Shown: piece after piece, positions 2,030 to 20,183 of the stretch
How positions within the stretch are numbered: the first letter of the stretch is position 1
Layout: each line of letters begins with the position of its first letter
NCBI GenBank assembly: GCA_026125895.1
Contig: JAHCKG010000001.1
Location: 434,001-498,000, forward strand
Direction: 5' to 3'
Origin: Pseudolabrys sp.
Lineage (GTDB): Bacteria > Pseudomonadota > Alphaproteobacteria > Rhizobiales > Xanthobacteraceae
DNA length: 64,000 nucleotides
Made by a program: the position numbers and the translations under genes
The notes under the pieces: model-generated
What the model saw: only the letters and a program-made list of their open reading frames with translations
Told to the model about the DNA's origin: nothing
Databases searched by the model: none

Positions 2030-2059
2030 TAATAGTGTAAACAGATGTCAACACTATTA
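2030..2059 (-). promoter_or_regulatory. Inverted repeat around a -35 box, candidate operator of the two-gene unit
   Basis: A perfect 8-bp inverted repeat, TAATAGTG (2030-2037) and CACTATTA (2052-2059), is separated by 14 bases. The spacer holds TTGACA on the minus strand (2051-2046), a consensus -35 hexamer reading toward the gene starting at 2011. The flanking DNA (about 2030-2130) is much more AT-rich than its surroundings. Autoregulation by the helix-turn-helix protein encoded downstream is inferred from position. Confidence 0.5.
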
Positions 2060-2199
2060 ACTCCGTCTCCGTTGCGACGCGGTTAATGGTCTAAGTATCT
2101 GATCATAAAACTATATCTAAGAGTACTTGATTGTCTCGCCAGGCACAACCACAAGGCGAGGCGGGCGAAGGGCTGGAGCGGTCATCGACAGACCGGCCC

Positions 2200-2940: not shown

Positions 2941-2956
2941 CATCACTCTTTGCTTT

Positions 2957-3040
2957 GTCGCCCCCGCGAAGGCGGGGGCCCATAACCCCTGCGCTATCGA
3001 GAGGTCACGGCGTATGGGTCCCCGCCTTCGCGGGGACGAC
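2957..3040. repeat. Bipartite palindromic repeat between the CoA transferase subunit genes
   Basis: Two GC-rich hairpins (CCCCCGCGAAGGCGGGGG and CCCCGCCTTCGCGGGG) flank a spacer, and the outer ends also pair (GTCG with CGAC, CCCATA with TATGGG). It fills nearly the whole gap between the alpha and beta subunit genes. The same layout occurs at 14180-14263 and 62073-62162, with a half copy at 6651-6682. This is a REP-type dispersed element. Confidence 0.8.
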
Positions 3041-3044
3041 GAGT

Positions 3045-3872: not shown

Positions 3873-3929
3873 CGCCGGCTCCTGCCCACTGCGCCGCGGC
3901 CCATCGCGTGGGCCGCCGCTTAAAAGTCA

Positions 3930-3963
3930 TGGCAACCTTGCGATTGCCAAGTCCATCTTGCCA
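3930..3963. promoter_or_regulatory. Operator-like repeats between divergent CoA transferase and MetF-like genes
   Basis: TGGCAA (3930-3935) and TTGCCA (3944-3949) form a perfect 6-bp inverted repeat with an 8-base spacer, and a third TTGCCA lies at 3958-3963. The outer pair extends to CATGGCAA/TTGCCATG. The sites sit in a 90-base divergent promoter region. No regulator gene is adjacent, so the binding protein is unknown. Confidence 0.35.
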
Positions 3964-4904
3964 TGTCCAATGAATTCTGCGACGCCGTCAGCCGCATGAC
4001 CACCTTGCAGCAGAAGCTCGCCGCCGGCCGTTTCGTCATCACCGCGGAGATCACGCCGCCGGTGTCGTTCGACCGCGCCGATCTCATCGCCAAGGCGGCG
4101 CCGCTCAAGGGCCTGGCCGACGCGGTCAACGTCACCGACGGCGCCGGCGCCCGCCCGCACATGGGCGCGCTGTCGGCGGCGGCGATCCTCAAACAGGAAG
4201 GCATCGAGCCGATCCTCCAGCTCACCTGCCGCGACCGCAACCGCATCGCGCTGCAGAGCGAATTGATGGGCGCGGCGGCGAGCGGCGTCGACAACTTGCT
4301 GATCCTGCGCGGCGACGATCCGTCGGCCGGCGACCAGCCCGACGCCAAGCCGGTGTTCGATCTCGACGCGAGGGGCCTGCTCGAGACCGCACGCCGCCTG
4401 CGCGATGCCCATGAACTGCCGAGCGGCCGCAAGGTCGCCGGCACCGCCCGCTTCCTGCTCGGCGCCGCCGACTCCCCGATCGACCCGCCGGCCGGCTGGG
4501 AGCCCAAGGGCCTCGCCGCCAAGGTCGCCGCCGGCGCGCAGTTCGCGCAGACCCAGTTCTGCATGGATGCCGGCATCGTGCAGCGCTACATGGCGCGGCT
4601 CGCCGAGCACGGGATCGCCGACAAGCTCAAGGTCATTATCGGCATCGCGCCGCTGCGTTCGGCGAAGTCGGCGCGCTGGATGAAGGACAAGCTCTACGGC
4701 ACCATCATCCCCGACGCCATCGTCGAGCGCCTCGACCGGGCCGCCGACCCGGCCGCCGAGGGCCGCGCCATCGCCGTCGACCTGATCGGCGACCTTGCCG
4801 CCCTTGCCGGTGTTGCCGGTGTTCACATCATGGCGCCGAACAACGACGAGGCGGTGCCGGACGTCATCCGCGCCGCCCGCGCGAGCGTGAAACGGCTGGC
4901 CTGA
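3963..4904 (+). CDS. Methylenetetrahydrofolate reductase-family protein (MetF-like)
   Basis: A 313-residue TIM-barrel flavoprotein of the MetF family, which reduces methylenetetrahydrofolate to methyltetrahydrofolate. Family stretches are FVITAEITPPVSFDR (about 25-38), ADAVNVTDGAGARPHM (52-67), EPILQLTCRDRNRIALQSEL (81-100) with the DNLLILRGDDP segment after it, and AQTQFCMDA (about 193-201). It is close to the usual length for a catalytic domain. It stands apart from methionine genes, so it may serve a side pathway of one-carbon metabolism. The start is uncertain: the ATG at 3963 has no good ribosome site and overlaps a putative operator, while an in-frame ATG at 3996 (MTTLQQKL) is a reasonable alternative. 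Confidence 0.75.
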   Translation: MSNEFCDAVSRMTTLQQKLAAGRFVITAEITPPVSFDRADLIAKAAPLKGLADAVNVTDGAGARPHMGALSAAAILKQEGIEPILQLTCRDRNRIALQSELMGAAASGVDNLLILRGDDPSAGDQPDAKPVFDLDARGLLETARRLRDAHELPSGRKVAGTARFLLGAADSPIDPPAGWEPKGLAAKVAAGAQFAQTQFCMDAGIVQRYMARLAEHGIADKLKVIIGIAPLRSAKSARWMKDKLYGTIIPDAIVERLDRAADPAAEGRAIAVDLIGDLAALAGVAGVHIMAPNNDEAVPDVIRAARASVKRLA

Positions 4905-5004
4905 CGGCGCGCCGGCGCTCTTGCTCGCCGCCTTGCGCCATCGCATAGTCCCGCCCCTCGCCCTTTCGGCCAGACAACAAATTGAATTCCAGGGAGATCG
5001 TCTT

Positions 5005-5859
5005 ATGAAGCTCGTCCGCTACGGCGCCGCCGGCCGCGAAAAACCCGGCATCATCGGCGAGGACGGCAAGATCCGCGACCTGTCGCGCGTCGTGAAGGAC
5101 ATCGACGGCGCCATGCTCGCCTCGGGCGGTCTCGCCAAGATCAAGAAGCTGAACCTTTCCCGCATGAAGCCGGTCGCCGGCAAGCCGCGCCTCGGCCCCT
5201 GCCTCGGCAACGTCAAGAACTTCGTCGCCATCGGGCTCAACTACTCCGACCACGCCGCCGAAGCCGGCCTGCCGGTGCCGAAGGAGCCGGTGATCTTCTG
5301 GAAGCACACCTCGTCGATCTGCGGCCCGAACGACGACACCATCATCCCGAAGGAATCGCTCAAGCTCGACTGGGAAATCGAACTCGGCATCGTCATCGGC
5401 AAGCGCGCGCGCTATCTCGACAAGGCGAAAGCCAAGGACGCCATCGCCGGCTACTTCCTCGCCAACGACGTCTCCGAGCGCAACTTCCAGATCGAGCGCT
5501 CCGGCGGCCAGTGGGGCAAGGGCAAGAGCTGCGAGACCTTCGGGCCGATCGGCCCGTGGTTCGTCACCAAGGACGAACTGAAGAACGCGCAGAACCTCAA
5601 CATGTGGCTCGACGTCAACGGCGAATCCCGCCAGCGCGGCAACACCAAGACCATGGTGTTCGATTGCGAGTTCATCGTCTGGTACTGCTCGCAGATGTTC
5701 GTGCTCGAGCCGGGCGACATCATCATCACCGGCACGCCGCCGGGCGTCGGCCTCGGCATGAAGCCGAACCCGCAGTTCCTCAAGGCGGGCGACGTCGTCA
5801 CCCTCGGCATCGACGGCCTCGGCGAGCAGAAGCAGAAGATCGTCGCGTTTAAGAAGTGA
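5005..5859 (+). CDS. Fumarylacetoacetate hydrolase-family protein
   Basis: A 284-residue enzyme of the FAH superfamily, which hydrolyses or isomerises beta-diketo acids and related products of aromatic and sugar-acid breakdown. The N-terminal domain (MKLVRYG to about 65) precedes the catalytic core. The core has the metal-binding carboxylates in DWEIELGIVIG (about 122-132), the FLANDVSERNFQIERSGGQW segment and the C-terminal GDIIITGTPPGVG (about 235-247). The start is well supported by AGGGAGA upstream of the ATG at 5005. The gene is followed by a long palindromic repeat and a strong terminator. Its last 105 bases recur, degenerate, at 6533-6637. The substrate is not known. Confidence 0.85.
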   Translation: MKLVRYGAAGREKPGIIGEDGKIRDLSRVVKDIDGAMLASGGLAKIKKLNLSRMKPVAGKPRLGPCLGNVKNFVAIGLNYSDHAAEAGLPVPKEPVIFWKHTSSICGPNDDTIIPKESLKLDWEIELGIVIGKRARYLDKAKAKDAIAGYFLANDVSERNFQIERSGGQWGKGKSCETFGPIGPWFVTKDELKNAQNLNMWLDVNGESRQRGNTKTMVFDCEFIVWYCSQMFVLEPGDIIITGTPPGVGLGMKPNPQFLKAGDVVTLGIDGLGEQKQKIVAFKK

Positions 5860-5865
5860 CTCTTC

Positions 5866-5970
5866 TCCCCTCCCCCTTGTGGGGAGGGGTCGGGGGTGGG
5901 GGTCGTTGCTGATCGCAATCACCCCCACCCCGACAGCTTCGCTGTCGACCCTCCCCACAAGGGGGAGGGT
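5866..5970. repeat. Long imperfect palindrome with CCCTCCCC arms (dispersed repeat)
   Basis: Arms rich in CCCTCCCC/GGGGAGGG and GGGGTGGGGG pair across a short centre. A nested hairpin, CGACAGCTTCGCTGTCG, lies in the right arm. It sits between the stop codon of the FAH-family gene and its terminator. A related element is embedded in the gene at 8042-8905. It is a REP-like element of a type common in Hyphomicrobiales (recalled). Confidence 0.75.
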
Positions 5971-5984
5971 AAGAAAGAAAAAAC

Positions 5985-6014
5985 AAAACCCCGGGCGATG
6001 AGCCCGGGGTTTTT
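5985..6014 (+). terminator. Rho-independent terminator after the FAH-family gene
   Basis: A 12-bp perfect stem (AAAACCCCGGGC with GCCCGGGGTTTT), a GATGA loop and a T run. An identical stem-loop is present at 6692-6721. Confidence 0.85.
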
Positions 6015-6128
6015 GCATGCGGAGCAGACACCGGAATGTTGACCCATCTCAAGGGCCCGCCCGGCGAAATCGTCAGACTTGCAATAGAAGGAAAACGTGA
6101 CCGGCGCGGCCGGACCCGGAGAGCCACC

Positions 6129-6539
6129 ATGCTCGAATACGACGTCGTCGCAAAGCGCATCGATGCACACGGCAGCGCGGCCCACTGTAAGGACGCCGAG
6201 ATCATCCTCGACACCGACGTCAACGGCCGCGCGGACGCTTTCAATCCGGCCGAGTTATTGCTCGCCGCCATCGCCGCTTGCATGATCAAGGGCATCGAGC
6301 GCATCGCACCGATGACTCATTTCACGTATCGAGGCGTACAGGTTCGCCTGCATGGCGTGCGGCAGGACTCGCCGCCCTTCATGGCGTCGATCAGCTACGA
6401 GCTGATCGTCGATACCGATGAGGACGATCGCCGGCTCGAGTTGATGCACACCAATGTGCGGAAGTACGGCACTGTCTCGAACACCGTGGCGGCGGCGACC
6501 AAGCTCGAAGGCCGGATCGTTCGCGCCAGCAAGGCATGA
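6129..6539 (+). CDS. OsmC family protein
   Basis: A 136-residue protein of the OsmC/Ohr-like family, whose members act as peroxidases or bind small molecules. The family core FNPAELLLAAIAACMIKGIER (about 38-58) holds one conserved Cys. The rest follows the OsmC beta-alpha pattern, ending KYGTVSNTVAAATKLEGRI. GGAGAG just upstream supports the ATG at 6129 over earlier in-frame starts. The stop codon lies in GGCATGAAG, which is the beginning of the duplicated FAH fragment, so the very end of this gene was made at the duplication junction. It lies between two copies of the FAH 3' end. Confidence 0.8.
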   Translation: MLEYDVVAKRIDAHGSAAHCKDAEIILDTDVNGRADAFNPAELLLAAIAACMIKGIERIAPMTHFTYRGVQVRLHGVRQDSPPFMASISYELIVDTDEDDRRLELMHTNVRKYGTVSNTVAAATKLEGRIVRASKA

Positions 6540-6637
6540 AGCCGACCCCCGCAGTTCCTCAAAGCCGCGACGTCGTCACCCTCGGCATCGACGGCCTCGG
6601 CGAGCAGAAGCAGAAGATCGTCGCGTTCAAGAAGTGA
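6533..6637 (+). pseudogene. Duplicated 3' fragment of the FAH-family gene
   Basis: These 105 bases match 5755-5859 almost base for base at a constant offset of 778. One inserted and one deleted base shift the frame between about 6546 and 6563, and a few substitutions are seen. The copy includes the original stop codon and is followed, after a half palindromic repeat (6651-6682), by the same terminator stem-loop as the original. It has no start and cannot be functional. Confidence 0.85.
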
Positions 6638-6691
6638 CCGGCGCATAGCGCCGGTCATCCCCGCGCAGGCGGGGATCCAGCACTTAGATGC

Positions 6692-6721
6692 AAAACCCCG
6701 GGCGATGAGCCCGGGGTTTTT
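6692..6721. terminator. Second copy of the terminator hairpin, bidirectional
   Basis: The same 12-bp stem and GATGA loop as at 5985-6014, with T runs on both strands. It separates osmC (plus strand) from the converging terminase gene (minus strand) and can serve both. Confidence 0.8.
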
Positions 6722-6738
6722 GTTGGCGTCGCCCCCCC

Positions 6739-8148
6739 TCACCACCGCCTCGCCAAAATCCCCTTCGGCACCACCGGCCCGTCCCAGAAGCTCCTGATCC
6801 GCGGCCCGTCTCCTTCCCCGCGCTTCGTCAGCTCCGTCACCGCCCAGACCAGCGCATCCAAGCGATCCGGCGAGGCGCCGCCGGACAGCCCGCCCAAACC
6901 GAAGTCGCACATCTCGTCCTCGAGCGCGGGAAAGCCGGCGCCGACATGTTTGACCTTGCCTTGCGCATACATCGCCGCCACCGGCTCGGCGCGCAGATAC
7001 TTGCCGCGCGTCGCATGCACCTGCTTGACCGGCACCGTGCGATCGATCTGCCGCAGCACCGCCTTGACCATGTCGCCGCCCTGGTTGACCTCGGCGACGA
7101 TGGCGTCGGCCTCGAGCCGCCGATACAAGGCGACCGCGCGCGAGGCCCAGCCATCCGGCGACACGCCCTGCACCGTCGCATCCTCGAGCACATAGACGAT
7201 GCCGCCCTCGGCGATGCCGGCGGCGACGATGCCGCAGGCATCGGCCCCGGCGCGCGACGACGCAGGCGGATCGAGACCGACGACGATGCGCAGCAGCTTG
7301 AATTGCTGCGGCGGCGCCACATCGACGCGGCACGCCTCGATCACATCGCGCGACCACAGCGCATCGTTGCGGTCCTCGATGATCTCGCCGTCGATCTCCT
7401 GCCGCCCGAGCCGTGTGCCGGCATAGCGGCCGATCACCGCTTCGATGAAGTCCGGCGACAGATGCGCGGCGTTGGCGTGCGTCGCCGCGCGCGTCACCGC
7501 GGTGCGCGGATCGGTGACGAGGCGCTTGATCAGCGCGATCGGCCGCGGCGTCGTGGTGACGAGCTGGCGCGGCCGCGGACCGAGGCGCAGGCCGAATTGC
7601 AGATTGTCGAAGGTCTCGTCCGGCGCGCGCCACTTGGCGAGTTCGTCGCACCAGGCGGCGTCGAACTGCGGCCCGCGCAGTTGCTCGGGATCGTCGGCCG
7701 AGAACGCGGTGGCGACCGCGCCATTCGGCCATTCCAGCCGCCGCCGCGACGACATCCACACCGGCCGCTCGCCGCGCGGGCAATGCGCGAGAATGCCAGA
7801 CGGCCCCTCGATCATCACCTCGCGCGCGTCATGCGCCGTCTCGCCGACCAGCGCGATGTTGAAGGCGCGGCTCTCGGCATAAGGCGCCGCGCCGGAGGCC
7901 TGCGCGCGCACCCATTCGGCACCTAACCGCGTCTTGCCGGCCCCGCGGCCGCCCAGCATCAGCCAGGTGGTCCAGGGCCCGCCATTGTTGGCGAAAGCCG
8001 GCGGCTCCTGATGGCGATGCGCGAGCGTGATGAAGTCCTCGTTAAGCGCCGTCAGCCGTTCCGGCGGCAGCGTCCTGAGCATCTCCAGCGTCGGCGCGGC
8101 TCGCGATGAACGCGTCAATGCGGCGCGCAAGGTCGATACGGATGTCAT
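6739..8148 (-). CDS. Terminase large subunit, gene-transfer-agent/phage type
   Basis: A 469-residue DNA-packaging motor protein. The ATPase half has a Walker A site, LGGRGAGKTRLGAEWV (about 64-80), and a downstream acidic site in FDAAWCDELAKW (about 161-172). The nuclease half has the expected acidic positions in VGLDPPASS, IVAEVNQGGDMV and SPDRLDALVWA near the C-terminus. It resembles the large terminases of alphaproteobacterial gene transfer agents. GGAGAA upstream supports the ATG at 8148, which lies within the 3' end of the preceding gene (107-base overlap). No portal, protease or capsid gene follows; the next genes belong to other functions. Confidence 0.85.
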   Translation of the reverse strand: MTSVSTLRAALTRSSRAAPTLEMLRTLPPERLTALNEDFITLAHRHQEPPAFANNGGPWTTWLMLGGRGAGKTRLGAEWVRAQASGAAPYAESRAFNIALVGETAHDAREVMIEGPSGILAHCPRGERPVWMSSRRRLEWPNGAVATAFSADDPEQLRGPQFDAAWCDELAKWRAPDETFDNLQFGLRLGPRPRQLVTTTPRPIALIKRLVTDPRTAVTRAATHANAAHLSPDFIEAVIGRYAGTRLGRQEIDGEIIEDRNDALWSRDVIEACRVDVAPPQQFKLLRIVVGLDPPASSRAGADACGIVAAGIAEGGIVYVLEDATVQGVSPDGWASRAVALYRRLEADAIVAEVNQGGDMVKAVLRQIDRTVPVKQVHATRGKYLRAEPVAAMYAQGKVKHVGAGFPALEDEMCDFGLGGLSGGASPDRLDALVWAVTELTKRGEGDGPRIRSFWDGPVVPKGILARRW

Positions 8149-8905
8149 CGATGTTCTCCGGAATGGTGGTGTCCAGATGGCTCGCCGCGTCGGGCTGTTG
8201 CGCGGCTGCCATCAGCGGCAGGCGCAGGCGCTGCAGCTTCTGCAAGGTGTCGGTCAGTGAGGTCAGCGTGCGCGCCGTGCTCTCGGCCTCGCGCATGGGA
8301 TGCGGCACGCCGTGCAACTGCGCGCGCATGGCTTCGAGCTCGGCAATCTCCTTGAGAACGAGCGCTTCGATGCGGGCGATCGCTTCGATACTGACGCTCG
8401 CCGGCGCGTCGGCGTGAGCGGCCGCGAGTTGCTCCGCCTGGACGAGAAGCCGCGCCGCCACCGGCAACTGTTTCGGCGCCATGCCGAAACGCACCCAACC
8501 GAGGCGCTGCGCCAGCCGCCGCAGGCTGCCGGGGTGAATGCGAAAGTCCGCGGCAATGGCGGCGATCGGCTCATCGGTCTGTTCGTAGCGGTGACGGCCG
8601 TTGGCCAGGAGTTCGGTGGAATAGGTCTTGGGCACCGAGACGACGCCGCCGCGCTTGCGCCTGGGCGCGGGTACGGGCGACGGCATCGCGACCCGCTTGG
8701 AACCAGGCTTACCTTTGAGCTTCGGCACACTCTTCTCTCCCCTCCTCCCACGCGCCCTTCGCTTGGTGGGGAGGGCACAGGCGGCCTTTGGCCGCCGTTC
8801 TTTGCCAATAGAAACGCCGATGCGACGCATCGGCTTGGGGTGGGGGGACTTCTTCGGCGCGCGCAAGGATGCGCGCCGCGCGGACACGCGGGTTCGTTTC
8901 GCCAT
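8042..8905 (-). CDS. Terminase small subunit-like protein (GTA gp1 position)
   Basis: A 287-residue protein preceding and overlapping the large terminase gene. A helix-turn-helix-like segment, DEPIAAIAADFRIHPGSLRR (about 112-131), fits a DNA-recognition role, and residues about 145-265 are long amphipathic helices. The first 73 residues are very basic, Pro/Arg-rich and low-complexity, and partly translate a dispersed palindromic repeat (8735-8851). The real start may therefore be MPSPVPAP at 8686, giving about 214 residues. Assignment as a small terminase rests on position and the DNA-binding segment, not on a strong motif. Confidence 0.6.
   Translation of the reverse strand: MAKRTRVSARRASLRAPKKSPHPKPMRRIGVSIGKERRPKAACALPTKRRARGRRGEKSVPKLKGKPGSKRVAMPSPVPAPRRKRGGVVSVPKTYSTELLANGRHRYEQTDEPIAAIAADFRIHPGSLRRLAQRLGWVRFGMAPKQLPVAARLLVQAEQLAAAHADAPASVSIEAIARIEALVLKEIAELEAMRAQLHGVPHPMREAESTARTLTSLTDTLQKLQRLRLPLMAAAQQPDAASHLDTTIPENIDDIRIDLARRIDAFIASRADAGDAQDAAAGTADGA
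8735..8851. repeat. REP-like palindromic element inside the 5' part of the gp1-like gene
   Basis: CTCCCC/TGGGGAG arms, CGGCCTTTGGCCG and CCGATGCGACGCATCGG hairpins, and a GGGGTGGGGGG tract resemble the element at 5866-5970. It lies in the open frame of the gene at 8042-8905, without an internal stop. Confidence 0.55.
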
Positions 8906-9069
8906 GACGGCGCTCCTGATGGTTGACGGGTGGGTGTGCTTGAAAAAGCGAAAACGGCCGGCCCGGGAGCGAAAAGGCTTTCTCCGGGCGCAGATCGCGA
9001 GCGTGCAGGAAAACTACCCTAGGAGCGTCACGCTGTCAAGGACTATGGTCCGCACTTTCGCTACCGCCT

Positions 9070-10716
9070 TCAGATACCGCCGTCAATGAATTGGCTAACC
9101 AGCGGCTGGACGAACCGTCGCTCTAGTTCGCCAATATGACGGTGCCTGAGATCGACGAATGCTGGAAAATCACCAGCCATCAGAGCGCCCATTGCCTCAT
9201 CGGGAATTGCGTGCTTCCTGCGAAGCGGCTCATCAATTAGTCCTGCCAATAGCGCTTCCCTGAACGCAGCTGCATAAGCCGGGTGCACCAGAAATCGGTT
9301 CCCTGGACTTGCATATGTATCCCGCTGCCCTTTCGACCAAGGCAAAATCTGAACGAGCCCTTTCCTTCCGGCATCCGCCAAAATCTGACTGCCCTCTCGG
9401 TCGGGGCCGAGCTGGTCCTGTATCGCCGCCAGCCGAAAAGCGAAGGCCTTTGCCCTTGCCGCTCTAAAATCAAATGTTTGGCGTAGCGGCTTCACTTCAA
9501 AAGGTCGTTGCCAAGTCCACTTTGGCCTTCCTGTCCGCAACATCTCCCTCATATCACCAAGCACAACTCGCACGCGATCGCCGCTCATGCCAGCAAATAA
9601 TTCCCCGTACGTCGTCATCCAGAACCATGAGATAATCAATTCTTGCAAATTATTGTCAGGGTCAGGGCTTAGTCGGAACGCCTCCGCCAAAATGACTACT
9701 TGCAACGAATACGGCACCAAGTCCGGGGATGGCACTCCACAACGCGACCAGAGAAATTCCGCAGCGCGCCTAAGAGAGTATCCCACCTCTTGCACTACGG
9801 CACGGCGAACGCGAAGCTTATCACTCAGCTCCTGTGCATTCGTTTTATAGACATCAAGACCAAACGCTGCCTTGCAGGCTTTCAAAATCGGGTCTTCATC
9901 CAGCTCAGCCCACCCTACGGGAGCCAGCAGCTCGCGACGAAGCTCGCTGAACTTCCTCCGCAAATCGAAATGGTCGGACCATGTGAGCGCATGCACCATA
10001 TGCGCCTCACTCATCCGAGCCCCCTGGCTGTTGATACGTTGAAAAGTACGTGTCGCCATATCAACATCATCAGTGGTAATCGGAATTATTGGAATTTTGT
10101 AGTCGCGAAACGACCTCGCAATTTCGTCGGATGCTTCGATTAAGTGCTCACTATCGGGACCAGATAATTCCCGTTGAAACCGCAATAGAGCCACACTGTT
10201 GAATACAAGATGAAGCGGCATTAACCGAGCATCGTCCTCAGCATCTTCGCGGATTACAAACTCTTTAGTCGTCAAGTCATAGAATACCTCGAAATCCCTA
10301 GAGATAGCCCCAGCGCCGTCATCGAAGACCTCATCAACCTCCTCAATTTCAAATAGGTCAACAGGAGCCGTCCGCACCGGTCTGTGCAGCGCACCGTATA
10401 GAGTGGAAAGCCGCTGAACCCCATCCAACAAATATTGTCTTGTGGTCCCTTCGGGTGGCAAAGACAGAAAGTGTGGGCCTAACTGGCGATAGCACTCAAT
10501 GGTCGCATGCGCGGTGCGCCAGACCATGATGGCGCCGATCGGGATTCCATCCCGTATACTGACCAACAATTCTCGTCGTCGATCCCAGTCCCAGACCAGC
10601 GGGCGCTGGAACCGAGGCACCTGAATCAGCCCGCTATTAATTTCCTCGAGCAATTGAGAAAGGAATTGAACGTGAGGATCGCTGTAGAAGCTTGGAGCCG
10701 CGCGCATTTCGCTCAC
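9070..10716 (-). CDS. DUF262 (GmrSD/ParB-like N-terminal) protein of a three-gene putative defence operon
   Basis: A 548-residue protein. The DUF262 fold is clear: QVPRFQRPLVWDWDRR (32-47), IPIGAIMVWR (58-67), QYLLDGVQRLSTLYGAL (94-110) and ATRTFQRINSQGARMS (221-236). DUF262 domains occur in GmrS of the type IV restriction enzyme GmrSD, and in other anti-phage proteins, where they bind or hydrolyse nucleotide. Here the usual DGQQR reads DGVQR. No HNH/DUF1524 nuclease motif is obvious in the C-terminal half, which is helical and unrecognised. It begins with GTG directly after the stop codon of the TOPRIM-like gene, implying coupled translation. GC content is below that of the flanks, suggesting transfer. 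Confidence 0.8.
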   Translation of the reverse strand: MSEMRAAPSFYSDPHVQFLSQLLEEINSGLIQVPRFQRPLVWDWDRRRELLVSIRDGIPIGAIMVWRTAHATIECYRQLGPHFLSLPPEGTTRQYLLDGVQRLSTLYGALHRPVRTAPVDLFEIEEVDEVFDDGAGAISRDFEVFYDLTTKEFVIREDAEDDARLMPLHLVFNSVALLRFQRELSGPDSEHLIEASDEIARSFRDYKIPIIPITTDDVDMATRTFQRINSQGARMSEAHMVHALTWSDHFDLRRKFSELRRELLAPVGWAELDEDPILKACKAAFGLDVYKTNAQELSDKLRVRRAVVQEVGYSLRRAAEFLWSRCGVPSPDLVPYSLQVVILAEAFRLSPDPDNNLQELIISWFWMTTYGELFAGMSGDRVRVVLGDMREMLRTGRPKWTWQRPFEVKPLRQTFDFRAARAKAFAFRLAAIQDQLGPDREGSQILADAGRKGLVQILPWSKGQRDTYASPGNRFLVHPAYAAAFREALLAGLIDEPLRRKHAIPDEAMGALMAGDFPAFVDLRHRHIGELERRFVQPLVSQFIDGGI

Positions 10717-11688
10717 CTAATCAATGCGATCAAGCCCCGTCACAACAGGATTGACCTCTTGCCAACCGCCGTCTCGCTTGAGATCAGCCTCAGTTACGGC
10801 CTCAGTTGCGAATAGAGCCCCAATCTTCTTCCCAAACCCGACGTGCAACAACTGAACCACGCCTTGAGGCAGCCCGTTGAAAAGCGCTCCCGCACCGGGC
10901 GGCGGCCTCTTTTCGTCCCCTTTGAACCCCTCTTTAAAATTGTAGTGACTCCTCTGAACATCAGAAAGACTAAGCAACGCTAAGTAGCCTTTCTCGCGCG
11001 CTCGTCGATCCTCATATGCCCAGATCCTTAGTGCGTTCTTTGTGAGATAGTTTTCAATATTGCGCCTCTGCAGTCTGTAGTATGGCACACTCGCATTTTT
11101 GCATTTTTCTTCCAGCAACGCAGATTGCGCACTGGGATTTCCAGGTTGCAACGCATCACTATCAAACATTATCCAATTATGAAGTACACCTCGCCGGCCT
11201 TCATTGGCAATCTCAGATACTCGCCTCGGCATCGAGGTTATGCCTCCGCCATTGTCTACCACAATCGAGCCTTCTCGTATTCGAGCACTTAGAAACTCGC
11301 GTTGATTACGTGTGGCCATGCAAAAAAGGAAATCACGATCGGAAACTTGATCTTCTAGCAGAATACGAAAAGGTTTTTGCAAGCAGTCAATCGCTTCATT
11401 CACCGATACGATAGGAATTGGCGCATTCCAGTTTTCTTCATATGCCGAGACATGAATTGCGCGCTCGGCAGGCTCTAGAGCTTCTCGACGATATCCGGAT
11501 TCGATCGTCTCCTTCCATTTTTGGCGATGGCGTGGCTGCAGTCCTTCCAACCAGCCCAAGAATTTTTCATTACGATCATCTTCGATTAAGAGATGATGCC
11601 TTCTGCTGATTGCGGCGTGCAGCAACGCGTCTAGAGCCGCCGTATCACACTCATCGTGAAAGACGTCAATTCGAACGGTCACCCTCAT
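10717..11688 (-). CDS. TOPRIM-like (DUF4435/OLD-type) putative nuclease of the same operon
   Basis: A 323-residue protein with no strong single-family match from memory, but with the ordered pattern of a TOPRIM domain. That is an acidic site in RILLEDQVSDRDF (about 108-120, Glu112), a strand and glycine turn in SIVVDNGGG (141-149), DSD in IMFDSDAL (173-180) and the RRNIENYL motif (208-215) that follows the metal site in OLD, GajA and DUF4435 proteins. This suggests a metal-dependent nuclease. It follows the ATPase gene by two bases and abuts the DUF262 gene, so the three form one operon. The partnership resembles split ATPase plus TOPRIM defence systems such as PARIS. The N-terminal 100 residues are unrecognised. 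Confidence 0.6.
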   Translation of the reverse strand: MRVTVRIDVFHDECDTAALDALLHAAISRRHHLLIEDDRNEKFLGWLEGLQPRHRQKWKETIESGYRREALEPAERAIHVSAYEENWNAPIPIVSVNEAIDCLQKPFRILLEDQVSDRDFLFCMATRNQREFLSARIREGSIVVDNGGGITSMPRRVSEIANEGRRGVLHNWIMFDSDALQPGNPSAQSALLEEKCKNASVPYYRLQRRNIENYLTKNALRIWAYEDRRAREKGYLALLSLSDVQRSHYNFKEGFKGDEKRPPPGAGALFNGLPQGVVQLLHVGFGKKIGALFATEAVTEADLKRDGGWQEVNPVVTGLDRID

Positions 11689-11690
11689 TA

Positions 11691-12977
11691 TTACGACTGC
11701 GCATCCCTGCTCAAAACAAGTTCACGGGCTTGTTCGTTAGCTTCTGCAAAAACATCTGGTGGCCACGCGTCACCTTTTGGTCGTCCAAGCTCATCAAATT
11801 CTACGCGATCAACAATCGAGGTGCCCTGGGTCGATTGCCGGACCCAGTAAACAACCACAGCGTCAGGTGCCAACTCCTTCTTGACAATTGCAAGCTGAAC
11901 AGCAAGCAGAAAATTCTCAGAGTGCGTTTCCACGAGCATTTTCAGCGGGACCGATCCGGCGGCCACCCTGCAGAAGAGGCGAGCAAGATCTGAATGGGCG
12001 GACGGATGCAAATGAAGCTCGGGGTGCTCGAAACTTAATATTGGATGCGAACCCAGCTGACCATGTTTAGCCAGCAATAAAAGACCAACAACGGGCAGCA
12101 TCTGCCCCATACCCTCGCCAGTATCCATTATTTCCATTTCAACTGCAGGGCCATCCGACGGACTCAGCACACAAGAAAACAGCTCCTTTCCTGCAAAGGA
12201 GCCCTTACGAATATTCAATCGATGACGCGTTGCCTCCTCGAACCACTGCGAAACATCATTTAGGACCCGTCCACCGGTTATCTCGTCATACGCCAAGAGT
12301 TGGGTGACGCCCGTGCCGTCTGCCTCGATGCGGTTCGCTCCGCCGCTGAATACTTCATGTCGGGGCGGCGGAACGCGAAGCGCCTGAAGCCAATGAAGAC
12401 TCTCCGCCGTTCGCTGAAGAATTTCAGCGAGCGCCTCAAAACATACGGAGACTACTGAAGGAGTTCGCTGACTTACGATCTCCGGAACTAAGCCACGAAA
12501 CCGCAAATCTAAATCGTGTTCGCTCGATCTTCCGTTCAGCAACAGCTGATAACGCGCCGAAACGAAATCATCGATTGGAAGCCCCGGTACCCAGAGAGCG
12601 GAGACGACGTCTCCGGTGCGGCGATTAATGATCGAAATCCTCTCAATGACCTGCGTTCTAAATTCCGGGAGATCGCGAATCTCGTATCTTGCTGAGTGAA
12701 CCAGTTCATCATCCCACTTCAAGCCAATGGACAGAACTGGGCTGCTGGTGAATTTTGATTTGAGGTCTGCAAAGCTCCCACCGCGGACTGCAGTGGATTG
12801 GATGGCAAGTGGGCATTGCTTGCTTAATAAAATTGAGTCTCGGATCAGCGGCAACAGCTGCAAGAGCGCGCTTTTTCCTGAGCTGTTGTATCCAAACAAA
12901 AGCGTCAAGGGGCGCAGATCAACCTCAGAAAGATCCAAGAACCCGCGGTAGTTTTCTGCGGAGAAGCCCGATAGCAT
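11691..12977 (-). CDS. AAA/ABC-type ATPase (DUF3696-like) of the putative defence operon
   Basis: A 428-residue SMC/OLD-like ATPase. It has Walker A GYNSSGKSALLQLL (about 29-42), an ABC-like signature DTGEGMGQMLPVV (285-297), Walker B with adjacent histidines ILSFEHPELHLHP (313-325) and an H-loop-like VETHSE (349-354). The C-terminus (AWPPDVFAEANEQAREL) resembles the DUF3696 extension. Such ATPases sense or drive partner nucleases in several anti-phage systems. AAGGAAG before the ATG at 12977 supports this start; an in-frame ATG at 13007 is also possible. It is the first gene of the operon. Base composition is visibly poorer in GC than the flanking porin and terminase genes. Confidence 0.8.
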   Translation of the reverse strand: MLSGFSAENYRGFLDLSEVDLRPLTLLFGYNSSGKSALLQLLPLIRDSILLSKQCPLAIQSTAVRGGSFADLKSKFTSSPVLSIGLKWDDELVHSARYEIRDLPEFRTQVIERISIINRRTGDVVSALWVPGLPIDDFVSARYQLLLNGRSSEHDLDLRFRGLVPEIVSQRTPSVVSVCFEALAEILQRTAESLHWLQALRVPPPRHEVFSGGANRIEADGTGVTQLLAYDEITGGRVLNDVSQWFEEATRHRLNIRKGSFAGKELFSCVLSPSDGPAVEMEIMDTGEGMGQMLPVVGLLLLAKHGQLGSHPILSFEHPELHLHPSAHSDLARLFCRVAAGSVPLKMLVETHSENFLLAVQLAIVKKELAPDAVVVYWVRQSTQGTSIVDRVEFDELGRPKGDAWPPDVFAEANEQARELVLSRDAQS

Positions 12978-13130
12978 TGTTGTCCACTTCCTTGCCCTTG
13001 GAGTTTGCATTAACCTACTTCGGTAAGACGCATCTTGCAATTTTCCTATCGTCGAAGTGCCGTGTTTAGGCCGTGTGTCTTAGCTTGGTTCTCCCAACCG
13101 ATCGGAAGGATCTCTAGGCCAACCCAACAC

Positions 13131-13160
13131 AAAAAAGGCCGGGGATTCTCCCCGGCCCTT
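13131..13160 (-). terminator. Rho-independent terminator of the porin gene
   Basis: A 9-bp stem (GGCCGGGGA with TCCCCGGCC) and a TTC loop, followed on the minus strand by six T. It lies between the porin gene and the defence operon and would isolate the two. Confidence 0.8.
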
Positions 13161-13214
13161 CTTCATATCCGAAGCGCGTTCTGCGCCCGAAGCCTGCTCG
13201 TGAGGCGCAAAGCC

Positions 13215-13886
13215 TCAGAAGCGATAATTCAGACCGGCGCGAACGAGGTGCGACTTGAAGGTCACGTCGTTGCCCGGCGTGCCGCCCGAGACGCTGCCGA
13301 GATCGGCATAGAGATATTCGAGCTTGGTGGTCCAGTTGGCGAAGATGGCGTATTCGACGCCGCCGCCGACGGTCCAGCCGAGCTTGCCCTTCGACCAGTC
13401 CGAGCCGACCGCCGGGGTCGCCTTGATGTTGCCGTAGGCCGCGCCGCCCGTGATGTAAGGCAGCCAGCGGTCCCAGCCGGCGTAGCCGATGCGGCCGCGG
13501 CCGGTGCCGAACCAGGTCAGCTTGGTTTCGCAGCCCGCGCCGGTGCACACGCCGGTGCCGCCCGAGTCGGTGCCCTTCATGCCGCTGTACTGGAAGTCGG
13601 CTTCCAGGCCCCAGACCCACATGCCGGTCTGCAGGTTGTAGCCGAGCTGCACGCCGCCGATGAAGCCCTTCGGCTTGGTCGAACCGGTGCCGCCGGCGCC
13701 CGACCAGTCGGACTTGCCGAAGCCGTAGCCGGCGTTGAGACCGGCGTAGAAGCCGGTCCAGTTGTAATAGCTCGGCGCGTAGACCGGGGCCTTGTAGGAC
13801 GGACGCGGCAGGTCGGCGGCGAACGATGGCGCTGCCATCGCCGCAACGAACAGGCCGATCGACATCGTCATCGATAGACGCTTCAT
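13215..13886 (-). CDS. Outer-membrane beta-barrel porin, Omp31/OmpA-like
   Basis: A 223-residue secreted outer-membrane protein. It has a signal peptide (MKRLSMTMSIGLFVAAMAAP, cleaved near SFAA-DLP), then alternating strands of a small barrel: YNWTGFYAGLNAGYGFG, KGFIGGVQLGYNLQ, LPYITGGAAYGNI and a C-terminal SHLVRAGLNYRF ending in Phe, the usual barrel-assembly signal. This is the common rhizobial Omp31/opacity type. AGGAG lies just upstream of the ATG at 13886. Two Cys in the GVCTGAGCE loop may form a disulfide. Confidence 0.9.
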   Translation of the reverse strand: MKRLSMTMSIGLFVAAMAAPSFAADLPRPSYKAPVYAPSYYNWTGFYAGLNAGYGFGKSDWSGAGGTGSTKPKGFIGGVQLGYNLQTGMWVWGLEADFQYSGMKGTDSGGTGVCTGAGCETKLTWFGTGRGRIGYAGWDRWLPYITGGAAYGNIKATPAVGSDWSKGKLGWTVGGGVEYAIFANWTTKLEYLYADLGSVSGGTPGNDVTFKSHLVRAGLNYRF

Positions 13887-14296
13887 CGGGAAGTCTCCTG
13901 AGTTAGCCAATCCAGGAACTGAAACTGGTACTGGCGCTGAACCGTGTGGGCCGCGGCCGGGCATCCGGTGCGGGCCAGCCCCCCTGGCTGGCGAAAGGCG
14001 CATACGCGTTGAATTGCCGCGTATGGTTAATAGACATGGACCAGGAGTGGTTAAGGGCCAGTTAAGTGAGAAACCCGACTTGTTTATTTTGCCGGCGCTG
14101 CGCGCACCGGATTACCGCGCGGCGTTGTTTATTCGTAAAAAACAAACAGCGCCGGCGGTGAGGCCGGCTTTGCCCTCGCCGTCATGCCCCGCGAATGCGG
14201 GGCATTCAGTGCTTGCGTGAACACCGCTCAATGCTGGATCGCCCGCTTTCGCGGGCGATGACGTCACAAACGCTGCCCCGCAATGACCGGCAGAAT
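13887..14296. other. Gene-free stretch: porin upstream region, terminator and palindromic repeat
   Basis: No coding region seen. It holds the upstream region of the porin gene and, near 14135-14168, a minus-strand hairpin (GCCGGC-GGTGAG-GCCGGC) followed by a T-rich run, which would end the thi-dctP transcript. Between that and dctP lies a bipartite palindromic repeat at 14180-14263. Confidence 0.6.
14180..14263. repeat. Bipartite palindromic repeat downstream of dctP
   Basis: Two hairpins (CCCCGCGAATGCGGGG and CGCCCGCTTTCGCGGGCG) are enclosed by pairing ends (CGTCAT with ATGACG). Same architecture and size as the elements at 2957-3040 and 62073-62162. Confidence 0.8.
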
Positions 14297-15370
14297 TCAG
14301 CCGACCCGCGCGCCCAGCACCGCCTCGATCGACACCCGCGACCAGTCCGACACGCGCGTGCGGAAGACCTTGTAGGATGAGTGCACCTTGGCGGTGGCGG
14401 CGTCCTTGGCGGCCATGTCGGCAAGCACGGCGTCGGCCTCCTTGCGCGCGGCGGCGACGAGGTCGGCCGGGAAAGCGGTGAGCTTGACGTTGTGCTGCTT
14501 GATCATCACGCCGAGCGCCTCGGCGTTGAGCCGCTCCATCTCGGCGAGCGCGTAGCCGGCCTCGACGGCGCAGGCATGGGCGACGATCGCCTTGAGGTCC
14601 GCCGGCAAAGCCTCCCACGCTTTGAGCGACACGATGGCCTCGCCGGTGCCGTTCGGTTTGTTGAAGCCGGGGTAATAATAGAACGGCGCGACGCGGTAGA
14701 GGCCGAGCGCGATGTCGGTGCCGGGGCCGACGAATTCGGCGCCGTCGATGACGCCGGATTGCAGCGAGGTCAGGATCTCGGCCGGCGGCGTCGTCTGCGG
14801 CGTGGCGCCGAGTCGGCGATAGACTTCGCCGCCGAGGCCGAGCGAGCGCAGCTTGAGGCCGCGCAGTTCGTCGAGGCTTTTGACCTCGCGGCGAAACCAG
14901 CCGCCCATGCAGACGCCGGTATTGCCGCCCATGAACGGCTTGACGCCGAACGGCTTGTACAGTTCGTCCCAAAGCGCCTGGCCGCCGCCGGCGTCGATCC
15001 AGGCGACGTGCTCGGCCGGCGTCAGGCCGAACGGCACCGTGGTGAAGAACACCGCGGCCGCCATCTTGCCCTGCCAGTAGAACGCCGCGGTGTGGCCCAT
15101 CTCGGCAACGCCGGAGCCTACGGCCTCGAGAACGCCGAAGGCCGGCACGACCTCGCCCGCGGCGGAGACGGTGATGTCGAGGCGGCCGTTCGACAATTCG
15201 CGGATGCGGCTCGCGACGCGCTCGGCCGACATGCCGGGCCCCGGCAGGCGCTTCGGCCAGGAGGTGACCATGCGCCACTTCACGCTTTGCGCGCGGGCGA
15301 TCGACGGCGCGGCCAGCGCGGCGGTGGCGGCGAGCGTGGTGCCGAGGGCGAACTGGCGGCGGGTCGTCAT
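14297..15370 (-). CDS. TRAP transporter substrate-binding protein, DctP/TakP-like
   Basis: A 357-residue periplasmic binding protein with a twin-arginine-type leader ([10 protein letters not shown] then TLAATAALAAPSIARA). It has the DctP fold segments WRMVTSWPKRLPGPGM, AAGEVVPAFGVLEAV, GGNTGVCMGGWFRREVKSL and APFYYYPGFNK; the GGNTG-GGWFR pattern recalls TakP, which binds 2-oxo acids. No DctQ or DctM membrane subunit is next to it. Its ATG overlaps the thiD stop (ATGA), so it is the last gene of the riboswitch-controlled thiamine operon. Binding of a thiamine precursor is therefore possible but unproven. Confidence 0.85.
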   Translation of the reverse strand: MTTRRQFALGTTLAATAALAAPSIARAQSVKWRMVTSWPKRLPGPGMSAERVASRIRELSNGRLDITVSAAGEVVPAFGVLEAVGSGVAEMGHTAAFYWQGKMAAAVFFTTVPFGLTPAEHVAWIDAGGGQALWDELYKPFGVKPFMGGNTGVCMGGWFRREVKSLDELRGLKLRSLGLGGEVYRRLGATPQTTPPAEILTSLQSGVIDGAEFVGPGTDIALGLYRVAPFYYYPGFNKPNGTGEAIVSLKAWEALPADLKAIVAHACAVEAGYALAEMERLNAEALGVMIKQHNVKLTAFPADLVAAARKEADAVLADMAAKDAATAKVHSSYKVFRTRVSDWSRVSIEAVLGARVG

Positions 15371-16176
15371 CGCTGACTCCAGGTTTTGTAGAAATGATTG
15401 AGCGGGCCGTGGCCGTGGCCGACCTTGAGTTGGTCGGCGGCGGCGATGGCGGCCGTGACGTAATCCTTGGCGGCGCGCACGGCGTCAGTCAGGCTCATGC
15501 CCTTGGCGAGATTGGCGGCGATGGCGGAGGACAAGGTGCAGCCGGTGCCGTGCGTGTTTTTCGTATCGATGCGCTTGGCCGCAAGCCGCGTCACCGCGCC
15601 GCCGCTGTCGATCAGCAGATCGACCGCCTCATCGTTTTTGCCGTGACCGCCCTTGATCAGCACCGCGCGCGGGCCAAAGGCGAAGATGTCGCGCGCCTGC
15701 GCTTCCATCTCCTGCTCGGTGCGCGCGATGGGCTTGCCGGTCAGCACAGCGGCTTCCGGGAGATTGGGCGTGACGATCTCGGCGAGCGGCATCAGCTCGC
15801 CGCGCAGCGCGCCGGCGGCGTCCTCGGCGAGCAGCCGGTCGCCCGAGGTCGCGACCATCACGGGGTCGAGCACGATGTGTTTCGCCTGCCGGCGGCGCAG
15901 CTCGGCGGCGACGACGCGGATGGTCTCGGCGCGCGACAGCATGCCGATCTTGACCGCCGCGACATCGAAATCAGAAAAAATCGCTTCGAGCTGCGCCGCG
16001 ATGAACACCAGCGGCACATCGTGAATGGCAGAGACGCCCTGCGTATTCTGCGCGGTCAGCGCCGCGATCACCGATGTGCCGTAAACGCCGTTGGCGGCGA
16101 AGGTCTTGAGGTCGGCCTGGATGCCAGCGCCGCCGCCGCTGTCCGAACCGGCAATCGTCAGCGCGATCGGAGTCAC
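15367..16176 (-). CDS. thiD: Hydroxymethylpyrimidine/phosphomethylpyrimidine kinase
   Basis: A 269-residue ribokinase-fold enzyme that phosphorylates HMP and HMP-phosphate for thiamine synthesis and salvage. Clear family motifs are [20 protein letters not shown] near the start, [39 protein letters not shown] and the anion-hole/base segment [18 protein letters not shown]. It starts with GTG inside the thiE stop (GTGA overlap) and its own stop overlaps the dctP start, so translation is coupled along the operon. The C-terminus is the ordinary ThiD end without a fused ThiE or TenA domain. Confidence 0.92.
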
Positions 16177-16832
16177 GCCGTGCCTCGCTTCTTCAGCGCG
16201 GCATCGACGGCGCCGCGCAGCTCGCCGGCCGCTGCCGCGGGGTCCTTGGCCATCGACAAGGCGGAGATCACCGCGACGCCGTCGGCGCCGGCGGCGACGA
16301 CATCCGCGGTGTTCGCGGTGTTGATGCCCGCGATGGCACAAATCGGCATCCCGGCTTTGCGCGCGCGGATGGCGGCGGCGATTTCGCGCAGGCCGCCGGT
16401 GCCGATCGGCGCCGCCGTGTTGTCCTTCGAGGTCGTGGCATAGACGCCGCCGATGGCGACATAGTTGAGCAGATCGAGCGGCGCGGCGGCCGCCTCCTCC
16501 ATCGACTTGATGCTCAGCCCGATGATCGCCTCGGGTCCAAGCAGGCGCCGCGCATCGGCGGTCTCCATGTCGTCCCAACCGATATGGACGCCCTGCGCCC
16601 CCGCGGCGAGCGCCACATCGACGCGATCGTTGATGAGCAAAGGCGTGCCGCGCGGTTTCAAGACCGCTGCGATATCCCGCGCCTCCTCGACCATCACCCG
16701 CGTCGAGCCGTGCTTGTCGCGCAACTGCACCAGCGTCACGCTGTCGGCGATGAGCGCTGTCAGCGCCGGTAGCGAACGTCCGCCGGCGACCGCGGGATCG
16801 ACAAGCGCGTAGAGACGAAGATCGAGAGTCAT
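16173..16832 (-). CDS. thiE: Thiamine-phosphate synthase
   Basis: A 219-residue TIM-barrel enzyme joining HMP-diphosphate and thiazole phosphate into thiamine phosphate. Motifs are [15 protein letters not shown] (about 31-45), [20 protein letters not shown] (64-83) followed by IGWDDM where most enzymes have [21 protein letters not shown] and [11 protein letters not shown]. It lies 12 bases after thiM and overlaps thiD. The set thiM-thiE-thiD lacks thiC and thiG here, so this operon is geared to salvage. Confidence 0.92.
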
Positions 16833-16844
16833 CGAATGCTGTTC

Positions 16845-17645
16845 CTACAAGACAATGCGCGCACGCGCCTTGAGGGCGTCCGCATCGAGCGTGTGAAGCG
16901 CGTCGAGGATGTTGACGGCGAAGCTGCCGGGCCCCTGTGCGCTGGCCGCCGCGATCTCGCCGGCGACGCCGGCAATCAGCAGCGCCGACGCCGTGGCGAT
17001 CAGCGCGTCGACCTCGACCGCCAGACAGGCGGCGACCATGGCGGAAGCGGCGCAACCCATCGCGGTCACCTTGGCCATCAGCGGATCGCCGTTCTCGAGC
17101 GTGACGGCACGCGCGCCGTCGCGGATGAAATCCTTCGCGCCGGACAGCCCGATCGCGACGCGGTGCTCGCGGGCAAAGGCGGCTACCGCTTCGGCAGTGG
17201 CTGCCGTCCCGGCGAGCGCCGCGAATTCATCGGCGTTGAGCCGCATCGCCGCGGGGTGCAGAAACAGAAGGTCACGCGCGTAGCTGGCGCGCGGCGGCGC
17301 GCGATCGACAAAAACGGGGTCGAGAACCCAGGGCAGCCCGCTCTGGATAGCGGCGTCCACGGCGATCGAGGTCGCCTCGCGCCGCTCCGTGCCGAAGGTA
17401 CCGAGATTGACCAGCAGCGCGTTGCTGCGTTTGACGAAGGCGCCGATCTCCGCCGGCGACAAGGTCATCGACGGGACGGCGCCGAACGCCAGCAGCACAT
17501 TGGCGGTGAAGTTCTGCGCCACCGAGTTGGTGATGCAGTGGACGCGCGGCGATTGGGCGCGAACGCGCGCGAGAACGCCCGCTGCCTCCGAGGCAAACCC
17601 GGCGCGTGTCACGATTTGGCGCGATGAGGCCGTCTGTTCCTGCAT
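16845..17645 (-). CDS. thiM: Hydroxyethylthiazole kinase
   Basis: A 266-residue kinase of the thiazole alcohol HET, used in thiamine salvage. The N-terminal family motif VHCITNSVAQNFTANVLLAF is followed by GAVPSM, then LVNLGTF, PWVLDPVFVDRAPPR and VTAMGCAASAMVAACLA, which carries the catalytic Cys region near the anion hole. The start at 17645 was chosen because GGAGGG lies at a good distance; the frame extends upstream through the TPP riboswitch, which should not be translated. First gene of the thiM-thiE-thiD-dctP operon. Confidence 0.9.
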   Translation of the reverse strand: MQEQTASSRQIVTRAGFASEAAGVLARVRAQSPRVHCITNSVAQNFTANVLLAFGAVPSMTLSPAEIGAFVKRSNALLVNLGTFGTERREATSIAVDAAIQSGLPWVLDPVFVDRAPPRASYARDLLFLHPAAMRLNADEFAALAGTAATAEAVAAFAREHRVAIGLSGAKDFIRDGARAVTLENGDPLMAKVTAMGCAASAMVAACLAVEVDALIATASALLIAGVAGEIAAASAQGPGSFAVNILDALHTLDADALKARARIVL

Positions 17646-17647
17646 CT

Positions 17648-17735
17648 CCATCCCTCCGCCGGCATGACCCGGATCAGGTTCGTTGGGTTGGCCGACACCT
17701 CGACCTCTCAGTCCGGCCACCGCCGGACACCCCAC
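17648..17735 (-). promoter_or_regulatory. TPP riboswitch (thi box)
   Basis: The minus strand shows the conserved parts in order: GGGGTGTCC, ACTGAGAGG, then CCAACGAACCTGATCCGGGT and CATGCCGGCGGAGGGA. The last part contains the thiM ribosome-binding site, so TPP binding should block translation initiation. It directly precedes the operon at 14297-17645. Confidence 0.93.
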
Positions 17736-17887
17736 GAGATTGCTGCCAATCTACCTAATCCGCGGCACCGGCCAAGGCAAGTGCGCGGCCCTCCGGGCCC
17801 GGAAATTCCGGTGAATCCGCGCCTTGCCAGGCCAACGTGATTTTGCTGTGTTGCGGCACTTGCCACGCCGGCCCGGAGACCGCCCCG

Positions 17888-18130
17888 ATGACCCCGTTTT
17901 TCGTCCAGATCAAATGCGAGCTCGGCAAGGCCTATCCGGTGGCCAATGCGCTGGCGGAAGCCGAGATCGCCTCGGAGATCTATTCGACCGCAGGCGACTA
18001 TGACCTGCTCGTGAAATTCTATGTCGATAGCGCAACCGACATCGGCCACTTCGTGAACGAAAAGGTGCACTGCATCCCCGGCATCAAGGACACCTACACG
18101 ATCATCACCTTCAAGGCGTTCACCGCCTAG
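17888..18130 (+). CDS. Stand-alone RAM (Lrp/AsnC ligand-binding) domain protein
   Basis: An 80-residue protein consisting only of the effector-binding alpha-beta domain of Lrp/AsnC regulators: MTPFFVQIKCELGKAYPVAN, SEIYSTAGDYDLLVKFYVD, HFVNEKVHCIPGIKDTYTII. It lacks the N-terminal helix-turn-helix. Such single-domain proteins form oligomers that bind amino acids or modulate partners; their role is poorly known. MTPFF was taken as the start because the domain begins there. Divergent from the thiamine operon and convergent with the transporter gene after it. Confidence 0.85.
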   Translation: MTPFFVQIKCELGKAYPVANALAEAEIASEIYSTAGDYDLLVKFYVDSATDIGHFVNEKVHCIPGIKDTYTIITFKAFTA

Positions 18131-18137
18131 CCGAGCG

Positions 18138-19085: not shown

Positions 19086-19154
19086 GGAGAGCCCCTGCTT
19101 ACCGCCCCGGGCCGCCCTTGTCCCGGATTTTCACGCCGGCGGCGGGCCCGCGCA

Positions 19155-20072: not shown

Positions 20073-20183
20073 GCATCCTTCTCCACGGCAGCCGAGCTCA
20101 GTGTAGCCGTCCGGGCGGCAAGCGAAAGGGCGGCGCGTCAGCGACGGCCGCCCTTCCGAACATCATTGCGTGAAGTTGCGACG

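Follow-up and report, generated by a model that had tools for sequence, protein, structure and literature searches.

We analyzed a window of 64,000 nucleotides of Pseudolabrys sp. (contig JAHCKG010000001.1, positions 434,001–498,000), in which three minus-strand open reading frames (ORFs) abut at 9070–12977. Gene A (11691–12977) encodes an OLD/ABC-type ATPase of 428 amino acids (aa), counted from a homology-supported ATG, with longer upstream starts possible. Gene B (10717–11688) encodes a TOPRIM-like protein of 323 aa, a presumed nuclease effector, and gene C (9070–10716) a DUF262 protein of 548 aa from a GTG, or 545 aa from an ATG at 10707, for which we propose the role of a nucleoside triphosphate (NTP)-dependent sensor or switch. 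The intergenic gaps are 2 bases (A–B) and 0 bases (B–C). The guanine-cytosine (GC) content of the genes (A, 0.525; B, 0.497; C, 0.533) lies well below that of the flanks (0.657 at 1–8905 and 0.669 at 13100–23000). These coordinates and this 50–53% GC stretch in surroundings of about 65% agree with a first-pass annotation of the same DNA, which had reported three minus-strand genes with gaps of 2 and 0 bases, poorer in GC than both flanks. The trio is probably an acquired low-GC island.

All three proteins were matched by PADLOC models of a single candidate system, PDC-M55 (A by PDC-M55A, 1.1e-62; B by PDC-M55B, 5.2e-35; C by PDC-M55C, 1.4e-85), and their genes are adjacent and encoded together. 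The trio is a member of an already catalogued defence candidate, apparently one without experiment. According to PMC12988326, PDCs are putative candidates that go back to a preprint of 2024 (Payne et al.), are themselves unpublished and for the most part still await validation, and a literature search did not return the name PDC-M55. The first-pass annotation had proposed a candidate defence system and had been unable to match the exact trio. The PADLOC models supply that match, and the proposal itself is strengthened by the agreement of all three proteins with PDC-M55, by the conserved co-occurrence of the genes and by a copy in a P2 defence hotspot, both described below.

The three genes recur as a unit. 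In a phylum draw of 398 genomes, the B family was found at 13 places in 10 genomes (E<=1e-6), and all 13 lay in an A–B–C array of the same order and orientation, one of them being a partial, decayed second copy in locus L024. Additional trio loci came from a mobilizable plasmid of Paracoccus yeei (L004), from Nonomuraea (L005) and from an IMG/VR contig (L080), the last being the only trio obtained from four viral-contig scans. Leaving out the decayed L024 copy, there are 15 distinct trio loci, all in the order A–B–C and with A and B always as separate genes. Co-occurrence of the three families elsewhere, on which the first-pass annotation had made its proposal depend, is thus seen at these 15 loci. 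Among 48 genomes of one class, B was detected at 10 places (E<=1e-6) and C at 11 (E<=1e-20), and 10 of the 11 C places were beside B, the eleventh being at a contig edge. A was commoner than B or C, being detected at 33 places in 25 of these 48 genomes (E<=1e-20), some of which are Menshen NsnB loci or HEC-03-type ATPases. Searched against the phage collection, the window's B gave no match, and against the plasmid collection it gave one record.

In gene A, Pfam detected AAA_15 (1.3e-15, 58.3 bits), AAA_21 (45.6 bits) and, at the tail, DUF2813, all over their cut-offs. The tail had been taken for DUF3696-like on first pass, a reading that we drop because DUF3696 gave no Pfam match in A up to E = 1. 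Against the PDB, the best match of the A profile was the OLD protein 6p74 (3.2e-14), which places A among ABC-type ATPases of the OLD kind; next came GajA, the retron Eco8 OLD protein and, more weakly, AriA (8v46, 9e-4). The PADLOC model of NsnB also matched A, at 8.4e-38, far below PDC-M55A. We take GYNSSGKS (12870–12893, minus strand, as are all features below) to be the Walker A motif of A, EHPE (12018–12029) to be Walker B-like and ETHSE (11916–11930) to be H-loop-like. Over 14 sequences, G, N, G, K and S of the first, E, P and E of the second and ETHS of the third are invariant. At two other loci, L073 (7644–8916) and L075 (7665–8890), an A-related ATPase (in L075 of the HEC-03B type) comes before a HEC-03A-like protein and a gene for an RNA ligase, so that this sister system may cut or repair RNA.

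Protein B contains E112, G147–G149, D176-x-D178 and RRNIENYL (208–215), the ordered Glu, GGG, DxD and RRxIENYL pattern noticed on first pass. Alignment of the window's B with 13 homologues (19–31% identical to it) showed that E112, D117, G148, G149, D176, R209, E212 and Y214 are invariant. E112 (11353–11355) is the proposed first TOPRIM metal ligand, and D176-x-D178 (11155–11163) the proposed TOPRIM DxD, in which D178 is nearly invariant (E in L028). R209-NI-E212-N-Y214 (11047–11064) corresponds to an OLD-type RxxExY motif and aligns with REVENYI of L002; L058 has REPENYI. B is a presumed TOPRIM nuclease, and no match assigned it to a housekeeping family; such an assignment would have told against the first-pass proposal.

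Outside trios, matches to the B model were all single-chain frames: L002 and L003 from a 385-genome class draw, L058 from a 229-genome class draw, and L103 from the genus. L002 and L003 match both the A and the B profile, and L058 and L103 match the A profile only. In the single chain of L002, the A profile lies at residues 15–350 and the B profile at 395–555. L058, also a single chain, is matched by the PDC-M55B model at 4.4e-9 and by Pfam OLD-like_TOPRIM at 5.7e-11. When B was aligned by hhalign with the three OLD-type TOPRIM tails of L002, L003 and L058, the result was a probability of 98.2% with an E-value of 3e-14, which for such pairwise comparisons is not database-calibrated, and the E, DxD and RxxENY positions were aligned. 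Controls gave 0.1% for B against NsnC and 0.3% for A against the same three tails. Because of the single chain of L002, the OLD-like_TOPRIM match of L058 and the hhalign result, A and B together look like a split OLD-type ATPase–nuclease.

Gene C, called a DUF262 gene on first pass, matches Pfam GmrSD_N (DUF262) at 2.5e-23, and a Pfam match to GmrSD_C (DUF1524 nuclease) was not found in it. Its profile matched the DUF262 structure 7p9k, which we take to be BrxU, at 7e-16. Six residues of C are invariant in 14 sequences. D95, G96, Q98 and R99 belong to DGVQR (10411–10425), the DUF262 nucleotide motif with the canonical form DGQQR, and R224 and N226 to FQRIN (10030–10044), the DUF262 FxxxN motif; both motifs are named in the account of DUF262 in PMC12137116. 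A degenerate His-Me (DUF1524-like) region (9292–9354) reads VQILP, as against HHxxP in nuclease-bearing relatives. The HH pair is absent from all 14 trio C proteins compared, the truncated C of L033 having been left out, whereas four of the six non-trio DUF262 proteins have it (L006–L011, hand-picked from 35 plasmid records and showing no A or B match at E<=0.01). C is apparently a DUF262 protein whose His-Me nuclease site has been lost.

Two of the non-trio loci have neighbors of their own. In a Klebsiella plasmid (L006, 4964–7557), the gene of a DUF262 protein that lacks HH shares an overlap with an AbiC-like gene, and the A and B profiles find nothing there; in an Azospirillum plasmid (L009, 5887–8772), a DUF262 protein without HH immediately precedes a HipA-like gene. 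Across these two and the trio C, small numbers as they are, the pattern seems to be that a DUF262 protein loses its nuclease when a separate effector is present. C is itself extended at two trio loci: in L026 (4453–6693) it runs into near-identical tandem TPR repeats up to the contig end, and in L031 (1987–7230) it is fused with TIR, NB-ARC and WD40 in a single open frame encoding a protein of 1748 aa.

By Pfam, the trio in the window is flanked by genes for a terminase large subunit, an outer-membrane protein and DctP. The terminase large subunit gene, with a 287-aa gene upstream of it, occupies 6739–8905, and no phage or gene transfer agent (GTA) genes were recognized among the eight downstream ORFs tested. 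The 287-aa gene has no Pfam family, and of the eight ORFs tested beyond it (270–6304), two were assigned to non-phage families and the other six to no family. The terminase part of the first-pass observation that GTA terminase genes lie alongside is therefore upheld, and a GTA cluster is not demonstrated. An Rfam scan of 8000–14500 found no RNA family at gathering score, and promoter and terminator patterns occurred about as often as expected from shuffling (3 versus a mean of 2.8, and 7 versus 5.3).

We then compared this site with seven congener regions fetched around relatives of the 287-aa gene. In one of them (L095), the order is DctP, outer-membrane protein, other sequence, the 287-aa-gene relative and terminase large subunit, with no trio between; the flanks of the remaining six differ from those of the window. 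The site in L095 equivalent to the window island (1460–2980) is occupied by a different 1.5-kb stretch of 56% GC, with a 295-aa frame without a Pfam family, which suggests a variable spot. Across 43 genomes of the genus, a set that contains the window's own, the B model matched in 2, and the second match (L103, E 8.5e-7) is the frame matching the A profile, so that the trio is present in the window's genome only. The drop in GC, the L095 site without the trio and the presence of the trio in 1 of 43 genus genomes fit its sporadic insertion.

Neighboring genes were listed at 11 trio loci, and six of them, picked by eye at L025, L029 and L030, were scanned with Pfam; they serve as examples, not frequencies. 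In L080, the trio lies between a gpA-like replication protein and a portal protein of a P2-like prophage, and the P2 gpA–gpQ site is described in PMC9122126 as a hotspot of anti-phage systems. In L029, hsdM, hsdS and hsdR precede the trio, and the stop codon of hsdR shares the letters TAATG with the start of A; downstream of this trio is a gene for an HNH_2 endonuclease (4482–5618). In L030, a gene for a C5 cytosine methylase and the end of C overlap, and in L025, about 1.5 kb separate the trio from a reverse transcriptase gene downstream of it. The P2 hotspot, the coupled type I restriction-modification (R-M) genes and the cytosine methylase hint at a possible trigger.

Taken together, these observations make it fairly probable, in our judgment, that the trio serves as a mobile system against phages, working like a split OLD nuclease with a separate sensor, in which C would sense, A would gate and B would cut. 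We infer that A and B form a complex in which the ATPase keeps the TOPRIM nuclease inactive. Since C has apparently lost its own nuclease site, we propose this GmrSD/BrxU-type protein as the sensor. It would perceive an infection cue in a nucleotide-dependent manner, perhaps the modification state of DNA or interference with restriction, and pass the signal on; A would then license B to cut nucleic acid, either DNA or tRNA, and the outcome would most likely be abortive infection. In PARIS, as reported in PMC12409363, the ATPase holds a TOPRIM RNase and frees it on sensing a phage protein, whereupon tRNA-Lys is cut. OLD and GajA proteins are reported to cut DNA (PMC10568477), and the DUF262 proteins of GmrSD, BrxU and SspE to use NTPs and to be tied to modified-DNA recognition and nuclease activity (PMC10952713). 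More tentatively, and with some doubt, the mechanism of PDC-M55 might be of a new class, in which a modification-dependent restriction enzyme, retired from catalysis, governs a split OLD ATPase–nuclease. As an allosteric sensor of DNA modification or of failed restriction, C might then release a TOPRIM enzyme that cuts RNA or DNA, and it might offer a slot for further sensor modules such as TPR or NB-ARC–WD40 with TIR. One operon here joins three well-known modules, OLD ATPase, TOPRIM and DUF262, the last in a restriction-type protein apparently without its nuclease site.

A number of results weigh against the split-OLD reading. Pfam assigned B to no family up to E = 1, and sequence and profile searches of the PDB with B gave nothing significant. 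In L002 and L003, Pfam found AAA_15/AAA_21 and detected no TOPRIM domain; L002 had no PDB match at E<=0.01, and our own B profile did not reach L058 at E<=1. The AlphaFold models of B and C, built on only three aligned rows each, are poor, with a mean predicted local distance difference test (pLDDT) score of 48.7 and 48.1, respectively. Blocks of the B model at about residues 101–210 average pLDDT 52–82 with a beta–alpha order that would suit TOPRIM, and a Foldseek search with this model gave 0 PDB matches at E<=0.001, the top ones being generic alpha/beta folds. Given this poor model and the Foldseek result, the TOPRIM fold of B is read from sequence. The pairing of an ATPase with a separate TOPRIM protein, put forward on first pass, therefore has the motifs, the hhalign result and L002 and L058 on its side, and a low-confidence model that does not confirm the fold on the other. 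At the first Q of DGQQR, 8 of 14 trio copies carry another residue (V in the window), while the other 6 and all 6 non-trio proteins keep Q, so C cannot be counted on to hydrolyze nucleotides. C fusions occur in only 2 of the 15 trio loci, and several copies look worn: B of L028 has an in-frame TGA, C of L033 is 232 aa, and the second L024 copy is partial. Identity matrices over the 15 loci are correlated (r = 0.88 for A–B, 0.93 for A–C and 0.86 for B–C; 0 of 5000 permutations as high for each), which speaks for the trio as a unit, although common descent of whole loci would be enough to explain it. No R-M or other recognized defence gene was seen in the neighborhood of the window trio, and the literature search found no experiment on the PDC-M55 family.

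Some of the same evidence can be read differently. In type IV-like, modification-dependent restriction, C would recognize modified or foreign DNA, as GmrSD and BrxU do, and recruit A–B to cut it directly, with B standing in for the His-Me nuclease that C has lost and no cell death needed. Such a scheme would account for the profile match of C to 7p9k, for the loss of the His-Me site in C while a separate nuclease-like B is present, and for the C5 cytosine methylase overlapping the trio in L030 and the type I R-M genes before it in L029; the cutting of DNA by OLD and GajA (PMC10568477) also suits it. We nevertheless find it rather doubtful, as the R-M partners come from six hand-picked genes at three loci and the TOPRIM protein AriB provides a precedent for cutting tRNA (PMC12409363). 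Were the trio instead a PARIS-like guard of restriction, it would watch for anti-restriction proteins of phages or for a failure of R-M, and cleavage of tRNA by B would stop translation. B fails DUF4435, R-M coupling is seen at one trio locus only (L029), and DUF262 is mentioned 0 times in the main text of PMC9122126, the study of P2 and P4 hotspots that also described PARIS. Even with that shared hotspot setting, the hsdMSR genes coupled to the trio in L029 and the place of A in the same ATPase superfamily as AriA (8v46; AAA_15 over cut-off), we regard such a guard as unlikely.

That the trio is not a defence system at all, being a cargo or housekeeping ATPase–nuclease operon of a mobile element, appears very unlikely. 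An archaeal OLD-family ATPase is reported in PMC12796447 to act in cell-cycle progression rather than defence, and the trio has no known phenotype; on the other hand, its sporadic presence in 1 of 43 genus genomes, the different stretch at the equivalent site of L095, the copy in the P2 hotspot and the R-M neighbors all speak for defence. Menshen (NsnABC), which the first-pass annotation had considered possible, was rejected as a direct match. A and C do match NsnB (8.4e-38, compared with 1.1e-62 for PDC-M55A) and NsnA (2.3e-8, compared with 1.4e-85 for PDC-M55C). However, B is unrelated to NsnC (0.1% by hhalign, and no PADLOC match of NsnC to B up to E = 1), and the NsnC model was not found in the window's own genome at 1e-6. 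The gene order differs as well: when the profiles were run on 10 fetched NsnC places of 21, nine had the order DUF262–ATPase–NsnC, and the tenth (L055), which ends at a contig edge, showed ATPase and NsnC only. Membership in Menshen, or a subtype of it, is thus highly improbable. Overall, the defence candidacy put forward in the first-pass interpretation is well supported by context and its ATPase/TOPRIM logic by sequence, and its Menshen suggestion is not supported. The split OLD nuclease with a DUF262 sensor remains the reading that we prefer.

Among known systems, PDC-M55 shares all three proteins, adjacent, and we found no difference between it and the window trio. To this catalogued candidate, our analysis adds the view of A and B as a split OLD nuclease, the disappearance of the His-Me site from C and genomic settings suggestive of a trigger, and so gives it a concrete anatomy and testable residues. 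Menshen has in common with the trio a DUF262 protein and a related ATPase, and differs in having NsnC rather than B and in gene order. PARIS (AriA and AriB) likewise has separate genes for an OLD-type ATPase and a TOPRIM-like protein. The detection rule published in PMC9122126 calls for AAA_15/AAA_21 over scores of 32/27 and a DUF4435 partner over 27; A exceeds the former with 58.3 and 45.6 bits, and B, having no Pfam family up to E = 1, lacks DUF4435, so that PARIS was rejected by this rule. The trio also always has the third gene, C. In Class 1 OLD nucleases, the ATPase part is related to A and the TOPRIM tail to B, whereas the trio splits ATPase and TOPRIM into two genes and adds a DUF262 gene; classes 1–3 have both on one chain, and the genes are separate in all 15 trio loci. 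GmrSD, BrxU and SspE share with C the DUF262 domain with most of its nucleotide motifs, but C has no recognizable DUF1524 nuclease of the His-Me kind found in GmrSD and BrxU, with neither a GmrSD_C match nor the HH pair, and the trio has two extra genes. GrwAB offers another likeness: in GrwB, a DUF262 protein described in PMC12137116, domains whose function is unknown take the place of DUF1524, so that there, too, a DUF262 protein without DUF1524 goes with a nuclease-bearing partner. In that account the partner is a DUF262–DUF1524 protein, whereas in the trio its place is taken by an OLD-type ATPase and a TOPRIM-like protein.

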